NCBI GenBank assembly: GCA_012519745.1
Contig: JAAYPO010000037.1
Coordinates: 1 to 64,000 of the forward strand
From: Clostridiaceae bacterium
GTDB taxonomy: Bacteria; Bacillota; Clostridia; Acetivibrionales; DTU013
DNA: 64,000 bases
Direction of reading: 5' to 3'
Shown one piece after another: positions 46,968 to 55,728 of this stretch (positions are counted from its first letter, which is position 1; every line of letters begins with the position of its first letter). A program made the position numbers and the translations under genes. The notes beneath the pieces were generated by a model. The model made no database searches, had not been told where the DNA came from, and was given only the letters and a program-made list of their open reading frames with translations.

Positions 46968-48455
46968 ATGATGAACAGGATAGGATTTGATAATGATCAG
47001 TACCTTCGTCTGCAGTCACAGAAAATTCTTGACCGTATAGCATATTTCGGCGGCAAGCTGTATCTGGAATTCGGCGGCAAGCTCTTTGACGATTATCATG
47101 CGTCAAGGGTGCTGCCCGGCTTCAAACCGGACAGCAAGGTAAAGATGCTGATGAAGCTCAGGGATCAGGCTGAGATCGTAATTACAATAAGCGCCGATGA
47201 TATAGAGAAAAACAAGCGGAGAGGGGATCTGGGGATCACATACGACCTGGATGTCCTTCGTCTGATAGATGCCTTCCGTGAGATAGGGCTCTATGTGGGA
47301 AGTGTTGTAATAACACATTACAGATCCCAGTTTGCTGCGGACCAGTTCCAAAAAAGGCTCATGAACCTTGGTATCAAAGTGTACAGGCATTACCCCATAC
47401 CCGACTATCCGGCCAATATCCCGTTGATAGTAAGTGATGACGGATATGGCAAAAATGATTACATAGAAACATCAAGATCACTTATAATCATAACTGCTCC
47501 GGGACCCGGAAGCGGAAAGATGGCAACATGCCTATCGCAGATATATCATGATCATAAACGCGGCATACGGGCGGGATACGCAAAATTTGAGACCTTCCCC
47601 GTATGGAACCTTCCGCTGAAGCATCCGGTGAATCTGGCATATGAAGCTGCCACCACCGATCTCAACGATGTCAATATGATCGATCCGTTCCACCTGGAAG
47701 CATATGGGATAACATCAGTGAACTACAACAGGGATATTGAGATTTTCCCTGTCCTAAATGCGATTTTCGAGAGAATAGAAGGAAAATCGCCCTACAAAAG
47801 TCCAACAGATATGGGAGTCAACATGGCCGGATTATGTATTACAGATGATGATGAAGTATGCAAAGCCTCCGAGCAGGAGGTCATCCGCAGATATTACAAT
47901 ACAAGGTGCGCACAGCGCCAGGGTATGGCCGACAAGGCTGAAGTATACAGACTGGAGCTGCTGATGAAGCAGCTTGGCATATCTCCCGCGGACCGACCTG
48001 TGGTCGAGGCGGCAATCAACCGTGCAGAATCGACAGGCGGACCTGCTGTCGCGCTGCAGTTGAGCGACGGCCGTATTGTGACAGGAAAGACCACACCTTT
48101 GCTTGGTGCATCAGCTGCACTGCTGCTGAATTCATTAAAGGAGCTTGGAGGCATCCATCATGATATGCACTTGATATCTCCGATCATAATAGAGCCAATA
48201 CAGGCTCTGAAGGTCAATCATATGGGCAACCACAACCCACGTCTCCATACGGATGAAATACTTATAGCCCTATCCATATGCGCGGCGACAAATCCGACAG
48301 CAGCCCTTGCGATGGAGCAGCTGCCAAAGCTTCGGGGGTGTGAAGCCCATTCGTCTGTGATATTGTCCCGGGTCGACGAAAATGTGTTCCACAAGCTGGG
48401 AGTCAATGTGACCTGCGAACCTCAATACCAGACTAAAAAGCTTTACCATAAGTGA
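46968..48455 (+). CDS. DUF1846-family protein
   Basis: ~495 aa; RIGFDNDQYLRLQSQKILDRIAYFGGKLYLEFGGKLFDDYHASRVLPGF... N-terminus is characteristic. Confidence 0.92.
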   Translation: MMNRIGFDNDQYLRLQSQKILDRIAYFGGKLYLEFGGKLFDDYHASRVLPGFKPDSKVKMLMKLRDQAEIVITISADDIEKNKRRGDLGITYDLDVLRLIDAFREIGLYVGSVVITHYRSQFAADQFQKRLMNLGIKVYRHYPIPDYPANIPLIVSDDGYGKNDYIETSRSLIIITAPGPGSGKMATCLSQIYHDHKRGIRAGYAKFETFPVWNLPLKHPVNLAYEAATTDLNDVNMIDPFHLEAYGITSVNYNRDIEIFPVLNAIFERIEGKSPYKSPTDMGVNMAGLCITDDDEVCKASEQEVIRRYYNTRCAQRQGMADKAEVYRLELLMKQLGISPADRPVVEAAINRAESTGGPAVALQLSDGRIVTGKTTPLLGASAALLLNSLKELGGIHHDMHLISPIIIEPIQALKVNHMGNHNPRLHTDEILIALSICAATNPTAALAMEQLPKLRGCEAHSSVILSRVDENVFHKLGVNVTCEPQYQTKKLYHK

Positions 48456-48950: not shown

Positions 48951-49541
48951 ATGTCGTTAGATAAATACAAAATCAAGATTAAAAAAGGTTCTGAGAAGAT
49001 ATGCGGCGACGCTCCACAGTATTCGATCACATATAAAAGCAACCTGAAAAATGCCAGCAGCATAAGTCATGAAATACTATCGGCTTTTATTGGCAGCAAT
49101 GATGTGATAATTGAAATCAATTCTGACATGAACGGACCAGAGCAAAACCAAAATGACCCGGTGGCTGCATTTTTGGATAAAACCGGTACATTTGATCTGG
49201 CTTACAGGAAGAAAAAAGTTTTGTCTGAAAAGGGCAAAACTGTGCTGGGTTTTGCTATAGGCTCAAAAAAACAGGCGTGCGAAGCATTGATATATGTACC
49301 CAACAGTGTATGGCACCACCCTGATATGAAGAAATGCCTTCCCCTATACGGTGCCAAATATTACCTGACTGATGAGATCACTGATGCTCCGGCGAAGCTG
49401 AATGAGATCGCAGGGATGAGTGAAGAAGACAGGGTAGAAGCTTTCGGGATAATGATCTTTGATCTGGCGATATACGGTCAGATGGGTGTATTGACAAAAG
49501 CTCTGTCCATGGATGAAATAAAAGAAATGCTGGGATCATAG
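48951..49541 (+). CDS. Hypothetical protein, 196 aa
   Basis: Isolated ORF with upstream AGAAGG; no family recognised. Confidence 0.65.
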   Translation: MSLDKYKIKIKKGSEKICGDAPQYSITYKSNLKNASSISHEILSAFIGSNDVIIEINSDMNGPEQNQNDPVAAFLDKTGTFDLAYRKKKVLSEKGKTVLGFAIGSKKQACEALIYVPNSVWHHPDMKKCLPLYGAKYYLTDEITDAPAKLNEIAGMSEEDRVEAFGIMIFDLAIYGQMGVLTKALSMDEIKEMLGS

Positions 49542-52587: not shown

Positions 52588-52815
52588 ATGGCCAGGAGCA
52601 TAGATATGTCGAAAACCGTATATGAGCTGAGCAGGGACAATGAGGAAATAGTAGAAATCATGAAAGAGCTTGGGTTTGAAAGCATTGCAACGCCGGGGAT
52701 GCTCAATACGGCAGGAAGATTCATGACTATTCCAAAGGGTGCAGCTATGAAAAAGATACCCATGGATAAGATAAAGGAGAAATTCATCAGCAAGGGCTAC
52801 GAGATCATAGAATAG
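52588..52815 (+). CDS. DUF1858-like small protein
   Basis: 75 aa; IDMSKTVYELSRDNEEIVEIMKELGFESIATPGMLNTAGRFMTIPKGAAMKKI. Confidence 0.75.
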   Translation: MARSIDMSKTVYELSRDNEEIVEIMKELGFESIATPGMLNTAGRFMTIPKGAAMKKIPMDKIKEKFISKGYEIIE

Positions 52816-53018
52816 CTTGTGAACGCAAAGTAGTCTGTAGATAATGACCAAATCGACTTGATGATGAGGAGCACAGGAGCATAAGAGAATGCTCGCTCAC
52901 AGGAGCTTTGAGACAATGGAGGTTTACGGATCTGCTGTGCCCAAAGCAATATTATTGCATATGGACTGATTTCTATAGTACAATTGTATCAACCAATACA
53001 ATAGACGAAAGGTACCCC

Positions 53019-55124
53019 ATGGAAAAAAGAGATATTCCGATCAAAACACTTGGCGAAGACCAATTCAAGCTGTCTCCTTATGTATCCGGACTATGCGAAT
53101 TTATCAGACAAAGTGACAAGCCTGTCACCATATCGATCCAGGGTGAATGGGGCAGCGGCAAAACATCCTTCATGAATATGATGGAGGATGAGCTGTGCGA
53201 CGGTGCCGGCGAATACAGCAGCATATGGATAGACACATGGGATTTTTTTCTTGAGGACAGCCATGATGTTGTGGTAAGCAAGCTGGTTGCCATGATCATA
53301 AGCGAGATCGAAGCCAAATTCGATAACATCAGATGCAGCAAGACAAGAGAAGAATTGATCAGCGACTTCAAAAATTTCACAAGGAAGTTTTCAAAGGCTG
53401 TCCTCAGCATCACGGGGCTGGGTTCCCAATCAGGTGAGGAGCTTATAGACGACTTGTTTGGCGATGATATTTCGTTGAATATCAGAGACATAAGAGGCAA
53501 GTTTGAAAGATTCATAAGCAGGATCGCAGAAGAGTCGGGCAGTGCCGGCACAGCCTTTATCATTTTTGTTGACGACCTGGACAGGATACACCCCAGACTG
53601 GCGGTAACCATACTCGAAGCACTGAAAGTGTTATTTGACATAAAGCATTGCATTTTTGTGATAGCAATCGATTACGAGGTCGTTGCCAGCGGTGTCGAAC
53701 AAAAATACGGTACTGTGAGGGGCACAAGCAGGGATATATGCCGGGCTTACTTTGACAAGCTCATCCAGCTTCCGTTTGTCATGCCGACTACCAAGTTTGA
53801 CATAACAGATATGGTCATGCAGAGGCTGAGGGAAATGCGGTTCATGACCACCGAGCATGATTACCGCGTACATAGCAGAGATATACTCAACATAATAAGG
53901 CTGACCACGAATAATAATCCACGAGTCATAAAAAGGCTTCTGAATATGCTGCATTTGACAGTAATCATGGACAGGGAACGCATCGACAACAGCTCTGCAT
54001 ATTACCAGCTGCTGGAGCTGCTGCTTGTAGCGATGCAGCTTGCGTATCCCACTGTCTACCAGTTGATGCAGTCCAATGAGGATTTTACCTCATGGAAAAA
54101 GAATATACTTGTCAATGTGGATGACAAAAATATAAGCCAGTACATTTTGGAAGGTTTGGATATCGACTGTGAGTGGAAGGAGGTCGTTTACCTGCTGACA
54201 GTCAACGATCCCCTCTTAAAAATGAATTATAACAAAATACAGCAGCTCCTTGAGATTTTCCAAAAGCTGATGAAGAACTGTGAAGGATCTATAGCGTATC
54301 TGAGCAGTATTTTTGGTGTCATAAGCATGACTGATGTCAGCTCAGGAAGCATGCTGCCGTTCCTGTACAACGGTCAGGATTATGACAGGTCATCGCAAAC
54401 ACAGTTCAGGCAGGGGAACAGACTCATTGAGGGGATAGAGCCGGGCAGATATGCCACGGTCCTTGATGTAGGCTGTGGTAATGGAAAGACCACTTTTGAA
54501 CTGCTTAAAAGGGATCCGTCAATGCAGATAGAGGCCTTTGATATTTCCGGGACGCAGATAGAGGTGGCCCGCAGGAGCTGTGAAGAAAAAGGATTATCAG
54601 GAAAAATAAGATTTTATGTTATGGATGCACTGGAGCTGAAGGATACGGAAAAATACGACCTTGTATTCAGCAATGCCACACTCCATTGGATAACCAACAG
54701 CAGAAAAATGTATACTCTTTTGTACAATGCATTGAAATATGGAGGCAGACTGGCAGTGCACCAGGGAGGAAACGGATCTTACAGCGGATTGCATGCGGTG
54801 GTCCGGCAGGCATATACCAATCTGGGATATGAAAAGTATTTCAGGGACTGGACATTCCCCGTTTTCTATCCTACAAGAGGAGAAATGGAAGATCTCCTCA
54901 AAGATATCGGTTACAAAAACATAAGCGTTACCAGTGTCAGAACAGATGGCAGAGAGCTTGATCATCTGATAGAGAATTTTGAAAAGGCTAGTCTGATATT
55001 CTACAGGCCCATGCTTAAATGCGATGAGGAATATAAATCACTTGTAGATGAATACTACAGGCTTTGTTCAGCACAGCCGCCTGATACTTCTTCCCACAGG
55101 CTTTACATATTTGCTGATAAATGA
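53019..55124 (+). CDS. KAP-family P-loop NTPase fused to a C-terminal class I SAM-dependent methyltransferase
   Basis: Walker A ISIQGEWGSGKTSF (~53142), Walker B FIIFVDDLDR, KAP-like NNPRVIKRLLN; then ATVLDVGCGNGKTTFELL (MTase motif I, ~54460), DLVFSNATLHWI (motif IV region). ATG at 53019 preferred over the TTG at 52908. Confidence 0.85.
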   Translation: MEKRDIPIKTLGEDQFKLSPYVSGLCEFIRQSDKPVTISIQGEWGSGKTSFMNMMEDELCDGAGEYSSIWIDTWDFFLEDSHDVVVSKLVAMIISEIEAKFDNIRCSKTREELISDFKNFTRKFSKAVLSITGLGSQSGEELIDDLFGDDISLNIRDIRGKFERFISRIAEESGSAGTAFIIFVDDLDRIHPRLAVTILEALKVLFDIKHCIFVIAIDYEVVASGVEQKYGTVRGTSRDICRAYFDKLIQLPFVMPTTKFDITDMVMQRLREMRFMTTEHDYRVHSRDILNIIRLTTNNNPRVIKRLLNMLHLTVIMDRERIDNSSAYYQLLELLLVAMQLAYPTVYQLMQSNEDFTSWKKNILVNVDDKNISQYILEGLDIDCEWKEVVYLLTVNDPLLKMNYNKIQQLLEIFQKLMKNCEGSIAYLSSIFGVISMTDVSSGSMLPFLYNGQDYDRSSQTQFRQGNRLIEGIEPGRYATVLDVGCGNGKTTFELLKRDPSMQIEAFDISGTQIEVARRSCEEKGLSGKIRFYVMDALELKDTEKYDLVFSNATLHWITNSRKMYTLLYNALKYGGRLAVHQGGNGSYSGLHAVVRQAYTNLGYEKYFRDWTFPVFYPTRGEMEDLLKDIGYKNISVTSVRTDGRELDHLIENFEKASLIFYRPMLKCDEEYKSLVDEYYRLCSAQPPDTSSHRLYIFADK

Positions 55125-55164
55125 TGGCAGTACAAAAATATGTGTGAACATGAGAGGAATGGCA

Positions 55165-55728
55165 ATGATAGATATCCTAGAAATAAAATATGCGGCAGAA
55201 GGCTTAACCAAAGGTGAATTAGATGATATATGGGATATTATGTGCGACTGCAATAGAGAGTTTGTACCGCCTTTATCCAGCAGAAACAGTCCGACCCAGT
55301 CAAATTTGCTCACAGGCCGGGACGATACACAAACCGATGTGGACGACAAACCCTATGTGTACTTTGAGGAAATCAGAAAGCAGCATTTCATCCTTGCAGA
55401 GATAGAGGGGAAGGTCATAGGATTCCTTACCTTTAAGACGGATCACATGTGTGATGCTTTACAGGATTTTGGGGTATCGAATTACATCACTACCGTTTGT
55501 ATTGACAAGAAGTACAGAAAGCAGGGCATCCTATCGCGTTTGTATGAGCATATGGAAAATAAATTGCCCGACAGTATTCACTGCAGCAAGGTTTCAACGA
55601 GAACCTGGTCACAGAATGATGCACATGCAGGCTTCTTATTAAAAAGAGGATACACTCTGCTCAAAACACTTCCTGATGACAGAGGCCCGGGTATCGATAC
55701 CCTTTATTTTGGAGCAAAACTGAAGTGA
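55165..55728 (+). CDS. GNAT-family N-acetyltransferase
   Basis: ITTVCIDKKYRKQGILSRLYEHMENKL (acetyl-CoA binding motif A). The ORF track extends to 55048, overlapping the upstream gene; exact start uncertain. Confidence 0.85.
   Translation: MIDILEIKYAAEGLTKGELDDIWDIMCDCNREFVPPLSSRNSPTQSNLLTGRDDTQTDVDDKPYVYFEEIRKQHFILAEIEGKVIGFLTFKTDHMCDALQDFGVSNYITTVCIDKKYRKQGILSRLYEHMENKLPDSIHCSKVSTRTWSQNDAHAGFLLKRGYTLLKTLPDDRGPGIDTLYFGAKLK

Follow-up and report, generated by a model that had tools for sequence, protein, structure and literature searches.

RdrA of the RADAR system is an AAA+ ATPase whose heptamer sits like a funnel on the deaminase RdrB and boosts the conversion of ATP to ITP by that enzyme (PMC9994260). 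QatA of the QatABCD system, a KAP NTPase whose C-terminal domain is unassigned, is reported to form a heptamer or octamer and to bind DNA (PMC13279940), and Tmn is a KAP-family NTPase with transmembrane domains (PMC11846954). The window, which is the stretch of 64,000 nucleotides analyzed here, contains at positions 53019 to 55124 of the forward strand a gene for a protein of 701 aa, KAP-MT, in which a KAP NTPase is fused to a class I S-adenosylmethionine (SAM) methyltransferase. KAP-MT was compared with these three systems, with PifA and PDC-S20, and with methyltransferases of the BioC, trans-aconitate methyltransferase (Tam), and juvenile hormone acid methyltransferase (JHAMT) families.

KAP NTPase and methyltransferase in one open reading frame

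The open reading frame of KAP-MT starts with an ATG at 53019, ends at 55124 with the stop codon counted in, and is uninterrupted across all 701 aa. The original prediction that one frame encodes a KAP-type NTPase followed by a class I methyltransferase was confirmed by Pfam: KAP_NTPase (PF07693) matched residues 20 to 314 with an E value of 1.8e-39 and 136 bits against a gathering cutoff of 20, and Methyltransf_31, Methyltransf_25, and Methyltransf_11 matched residues 480 to 582 with E values from 4e-20 to 1e-15. A search of the genome from which the window is taken revealed this locus, situated on a 69-kb contig, as the sole match to PF07693.

Pfam and the alignments of relatives delimit the KAP part to residues 1 to 437 (53019 to 54329, forward strand), composed of an AAA+/STAND-like NTPase (residues 20 to 314) and a weakly conserved helical region (residues 330 to 437). 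An alignment of 20 relatives indicated as near-invariant the Walker A motif GEWGSGKTS (residues 42 to 50, 53142 to 53168, forward strand) with W44-G45 and G47-K48-T49-S50 invariant, as invariant the DDLDR portion (D185-D186-L187-D188-R189) of the Walker B motif FIIFVDDLDR (residues 180 to 189, 53556 to 53585, forward strand), and likewise N300-P301-R302, K305-R306-L307, and N309 of the C-terminal KAP motif NPRxxKRLxN (residues 300 to 309, 53916 to 53945, forward strand). Many KAP proteins, not all of them, possess transmembrane segments inserted into the NTPase domain. KAP-MT does not, as had been read from the letters before: the 19-residue stretch with the highest hydropathy averages 1.66 and is located in the core of the NTPase at residues 199 to 217. 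The absence of a transmembrane segment distinguishes KAP-MT from Tmn.

The AF2 model of the full-length protein was poor, with a mean pLDDT of 53 and about 70 in the KAP part, and its methyltransferase half was wrongly built because the alignment contained nonhomologous C termini, so that a separate model of this half was used instead. Profile A2, built from the KAP part, retrieved from the PDB just two distinct sequences with E < 0.01, 8hr7 and 8fnt, both named “Archaeal ATPase” and both with an E value of 3e-4, and the entries with the same sequence as 8hr7 are RdrA rings. RdrA rings were also the best Foldseek matches of the low-confidence full-length model (E value of 8e-6, low TM-scores of 0.20 to 0.27), and this match rests on the KAP part. 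Among solved structures, RdrA (PDB entries 8hr7, 8hr8, 8fnt, and 8fnu) thus ranks first for the KAP part by profile and, with the caveat of the poor model, by fold, although both matches are weak. The likeness to RADAR would be that of an ATPase ring coupled to a modifying enzyme, which is a separate protein in RADAR, with the ring of KAP-MT itself predicted from homology. RdrA has about 900 aa with a C-terminal lobe of its own, and its partner, the RdrB deaminase, is encoded next door, whereas the enzyme in KAP-MT is a methyltransferase and fused to the ATPase; no gene for an RdrB-like deaminase was seen near KAP-MT.

Three defense models of PADLOC matched the KAP half in part, PDC-S20 with an E value of 2.6e-32 (positions 18 to 371 of 464 in the model), PifA with 1.9e-31 (positions 7 to 317 of 720), and QatA with 3.8e-26, and the methyltransferase half was outside the matches to PDC-S20 and PifA. 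The NCBIfam model of QatA gave 101 bits, which is far under its equivalog cutoff of 600 bits, and no open reading frames for QatB, QatC, or QatD were recognized around KAP-MT. By these scores and alignments, none of the RADAR, PifA, PDC-S20, or QatA families claims KAP-MT as a full member.

The C-terminal slot of the protein (54330 to 55121, forward strand) is occupied by the methyltransferase, with the methyltransferase proper beginning at about residue 450, as indicated by Pfam, NCBIfam, AF2, and Foldseek. Motif I (DxGCGNG) is present. Modeled alone with 19 relatives, this half formed a complete seven-strand Rossmann fold of class I (pLDDT of 81, pTM of 0.80), which matched over 1,700 PDB chains at an E value of ≤0.001 in Foldseek, so that the complete methyltransferase fold expected for the C-terminal half is indeed present in the model. 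The best of these matches were the small-molecule methyltransferases TleD, AtmM, and RebM, with CmoM and JHAMT lower down, and JHAMT was together with the putative methyltransferase 3ccf among the best PDB matches by sequence. None of the methyltransferase models of NCBIfam reached its own cutoff, with BioC at 80.5 against 185 and Tam at 66.4 against 320, and the half resembles standalone clostridial Tam- or BioC-like enzymes along its entire length. Judged from these comparisons, BioC, Tam, and JHAMT are the nearest named families, from which KAP-MT differs by scoring under every equivalog cutoff and by being fused to an ATPase. Enzymes of these three families methylate carboxylates. This affinity is the basis for proposing a carboxylate as the target, and a carboxylate-bearing metabolite, an acyl carrier protein, or a tRNA wobble base would be a reasonable guess for the substrate. 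A link to the MADS system was considered and rejected: mad2 of PADLOC matched the methyltransferase half with an E value of 2e-25, but standalone clostridial methyltransferases score equally, and no other mad genes were recognized with KAP-MT.

Relatives of the KAP part and their C-terminal domains

Relatives of the same KAP subtype, found with profile A2 and with the protein as query, occur sporadically in Bacillota, in Bacteroidota (L003 to L005), on a Butyrivibrio plasmid, and on two IMG/VR contigs (L054 and L055). They share residues 1 to 330 with KAP-MT at 28 to 35% identity and diverge past residue 437 or so of the window protein, with region 330 to 437 and the linker being weakly conserved between subfamilies. 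The C termini of 20 sequences were sorted into module II with about 165 aa (12 sequences), module III (3 sequences), module IV (2 sequences), module V (1 sequence), and the methyltransferase, which was present in 2 sequences, the two congeners only. A profile of module II recovered its own 12 members with E < 1e-50 and no other C terminus above the inclusion threshold, and Pfam assigned nothing above the gathering score to the C-terminal modules of L003, L004, L036, L037, L040, L055, and L062. In the tree of the KAP cores, the window protein and its congeneric counterpart, L002, belong to one starred group with the Bacteroidota sequences, which bear module III. This indicates that the methyltransferase occupies the place of other domains in the relatives. 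The slot after about residue 437 looks exchangeable, with at least four mutually unrelated domains in other members, and the methyltransferase looks swapped in.

Several of the relatives have defense genes as neighbors. A gene for an Mrr-type nuclease is located directly 5' of the KAP gene in L054, L061, L125, and L126, the last three of which belong to one genus; L125 additionally contains HsdR, and L126 additionally contains RhuM and a BrxC/D-like (BREX-type) ATPase. On the Butyrivibrio plasmid pCY186, genes for an AAA ATPase, McrC, and a WYL protein come after the KAP relative. On both IMG/VR contigs, the region 5' of the KAP gene encodes a WYL regulator and an FtsH-like protein of the AAA+/M41 type (L054:488-2775 and L055:496-4931), and an ADP-ribosylglycohydrolase is encoded 3' of it in L055. 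Relatives L058, L127, L128, and L130 are found among housekeeping genes. These defense-gene neighbors constitute guilt by association for the KAP chassis and not for the version with the methyltransferase, which is itself in housekeeping surroundings.

Two arrangements were observed beside these. The unit of an Mrr-type restriction endonuclease and a KAP ATPase with module II recurs (L054:2753-6746, L061:7560-10459, L125:5044-7905, and L126:4696-7623) and looks like an uncharacterized Mrr-KAP defense operon. Similar proteins containing the motif MIKAAV are encoded directly 5' of the KAP gene at L129:4895-5647 and L128:6444-7367, the L129 copy without a Pfam match.

Fusion and acetyltransferase gene within the genus

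Searching for homologs with the same fusion yielded a Hungateiclostridiaceae metagenome-assembled genome of the same genus (genome G035, locus L002), which encodes a KAP-MT fusion, also of 701 aa, that aligns without gaps at 80% identity and contains no stop or frameshift over 701 aa; the fusion is not unique to the assembly of the window. According to the Nei-Gojobori method, the comparison of the two genes gave a dN of 0.119 and a dS of 1.68 for the whole gene, with dN/dS below 0.1, a dN of 0.110 and a dS of 1.21 for the KAP core, a dN of 0.084 and a dS of 0.88 for junction residues 440 to 480, and a dN of 0.132 and a dS of 3.12, which is near saturation, for the methyltransferase part. These values, with a dN/dS far under 1 for either half, indicate purifying selection on KAP-MT through the junction, and together with the gapless second copy they rule out a read-level artefact. 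Identity to the second species is higher for KAP-MT (80%) than for the neighboring Mem_trans carrier (67%) and the GNAT acetyltransferase (57 to 60%).

The gene for the GNAT acetyltransferase (PF00583, E value of 1.9e-11) occupies positions 55165 to 55728 on the forward strand, with an alternative ATG at 55159, and starts 34 to 40 nt past the stop codon of KAP-MT, with which it is probably cotranscribed. It also adjoins KAP-MT in the second species, where part of the copy reads N. A promoter-like element of 31 nt, TTGCATATGGACTGATTTCTATAGTACAATT, is located at 52955 to 52985 on the forward strand directly 5' of KAP-MT and is present as a single copy in the genome of the window; a diverged version is found directly 5' of KAP-MT in the second species. 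A longer reading frame beginning with a TTG at 52908 is unlikely since this codon is upstream of the conserved element.

A third species of the genus (genome G038, locus L080) contains neither KAP-MT nor the GNAT gene intact. Its single copy of the 31-nt element is followed 13 nt later by a stretch of 23 residues of a GNAT tail at 78% identity (L080:9850-9962), flanked by a GH13 gene with a counterpart in the window (73% identity) and by a gene for a UraA permease (84% identity). At this orthologous site, the direct succession of the promoter-like element and the remnant of the GNAT gene marks a deletion scar, and retention of the element argues for the ATG at 53019 instead of the TTG at 52908 as the start of KAP-MT. 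From this comparison, the ancestor possessed the unit of KAP-MT and GNAT at this site, and the third species lost it. The acetyltransferase gene seen next to the fusion at the outset is thus conserved there in two species, and leaves a scar in a third; by this arrangement it is part of the KAP-MT unit, an operon-like pair kept in two species. A GNAT homolog with 44% identity was observed in genome G042 (contig 33:17037-17462), and the sole match of this genome to the fusion protein was weak and in the methyltransferase half, indicating that the GNAT family also occurs apart from the fusion. Genome G037 was discarded as an empty-site control since the permease at the end of its contig is a different one (36% identity to the UraA gene) and the contig does not cover the site, and an insertion element was rejected because the locus is not flanked by direct or inverted repeats.

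The Mem_trans carrier (PF03547, 51409 to 52371, reverse strand) neighbors the module in each of the two species that possess the fusion and had no match at an E value of 1e-20 in the other three genomes of the genus. A DUF1858 gene (PF08984, E value of 4.9e-19, 52588 to 52815, forward strand) is 73% identical to its copy in the second species (L002:10195-10461) and is common to the slot in both, but the side of the KAP-MT/GNAT pair on which it is located differs between the two species, which indicates that the slot was rearranged. Because it changes sides, the DUF1858 gene was not counted as part of the system, and neither was the MFS gene, which is absent from that slot in the second species. 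A further open reading frame, of 196 aa (48951 to 49541), between the gene at 46968 to 48455 and the DEAD-box helicase, has no Pfam match and is not listed at that place in the second species. The neighbors of KAP-MT in the window are GNAT, DUF1858, Mem_trans, MFS, and the helicase; no defense island is present at the locus, and no defense genes were recognized around the loci of the window and the second species, where transporters, glycosidases, and the helicase are the neighbors.

Possible functions of the fusion protein

KAP-MT may be an accessory conflict ATPase of the RdrA/PifA/QatA kind with a small-molecule-type SAM methyltransferase of the BioC/Tam/JHAMT kind as its output domain, a tentative assignment that is slightly more apt to be wrong than right. 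The role in defense is derived from the neighbors of the relatives and from RdrA as the nearest solved structure. The conflict or defense role suggested originally has indirect support in the association of same-subtype relatives with Mrr, McrBC, HsdR, BREX-type genes, and mobile elements and in the proximity to RdrA; recognizable defense genes at the locus itself did not turn up. The KAP part would bind ATP and form a ring, the arrangement known from RdrA and probable for QatA, and a phage- or stress-derived trigger would turn this ring on. The attached methyltransferases may then methylate a cellular metabolite, a nucleotide, or a tRNA, probably at a carboxylate, and this methylation would halt growth or replication in a manner likened to RdrA boosting the RdrB deaminase in RADAR. 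The presumably cotranscribed GNAT could, speculatively, be an accessory protein that regulates or reverses the effect, and the NTPase-gated modification system suggested originally is plausible. The further-reaching version, a single-chain counterpart of RADAR with a KAP/RdrA-type immune chassis and a swappable output slot in which methylation of a nucleotide, metabolite, or tRNA takes the place of ATP deamination in stopping infection, is doubtful, if conceivable.

The steady 80% identity of KAP-MT would suit an enzyme that is being maintained better than an immune sensor, which evolves fast, and counts against the conflict ATPase. Strong purifying selection would also agree with a metabolic or regulatory enzyme, in which a small-molecule methyltransferase of ordinary metabolism has KAP as its ATP-driven activase, scaffold, or localizer and GNAT and Mem_trans belong to the same pathway. 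The housekeeping surroundings, the company of Mem_trans, GNAT, and DUF1858 in both species, and the full-length similarity to standalone clostridial Tam- or BioC-like enzymes point in this direction; the sporadic occurrence of the KAP relatives, several of them beside restriction genes, the deletion of the module in a congener, and a locus with no recognizable biosynthetic operon make it rather unlikely nevertheless. The variable slot may alternatively be read as a sensor, with the methyltransferase fold binding SAM, the product of a phage SAM lyase, or another ligand and switching the KAP ring, and with the effector being encoded elsewhere or being the ring itself. A slot that varies among relatives is expected for sensors in STAND/NLR-like proteins, and the Mrr-associated relatives already have a nuclease next door, so that the effector may be other than their variable domain; retention of the SAM-binding motif and of the active-site motif SNATLHW under purifying selection, and a locus with no evident separate effector gene besides GNAT, render a sensor unlikely. 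A neutral or recent accidental fusion of two enzymes, cotranslated without functional coupling, would fit the occurrence in just two species of one genus and the weak conservation of region 330 to 437 and the linker between subfamilies. It is very improbable because the junction at residues 440 to 480 is under no weaker constraint between the species than the two halves, both proteins have 701 aa, and the methyltransferase replaces the usual C-terminal module instead of following it.

The original prediction of an undescribed system held for the fusion and not for the ATPase, which is of a known kind. No KAP-methyltransferase fusion covering 80% of the query was present in the plasmid or phage collections, and none was found outside this genus in the whole-genome collections searched, one scan of which relied on six exact peptide patterns, by which distant fusions would be missed; open-licence papers yielded no description of such a fusion. 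New are the combination of KAP with a methyltransferase and the pattern of a chassis with a swapped output, for which no description was found.

If the assignment of KAP-MT as a conflict ATPase with an exchangeable output domain is true, KAP ATPases would be an NLR-like modular class of bacterial proteins in which a single conserved switch is combined with many exchangeable outputs, and a small-molecule-type methyltransferase would serve as an immune effector. The other modules scanned are without a named family, and the methyltransferase output has an assayable chemistry, by which the question of what KAP ATPases switch on would become testable.
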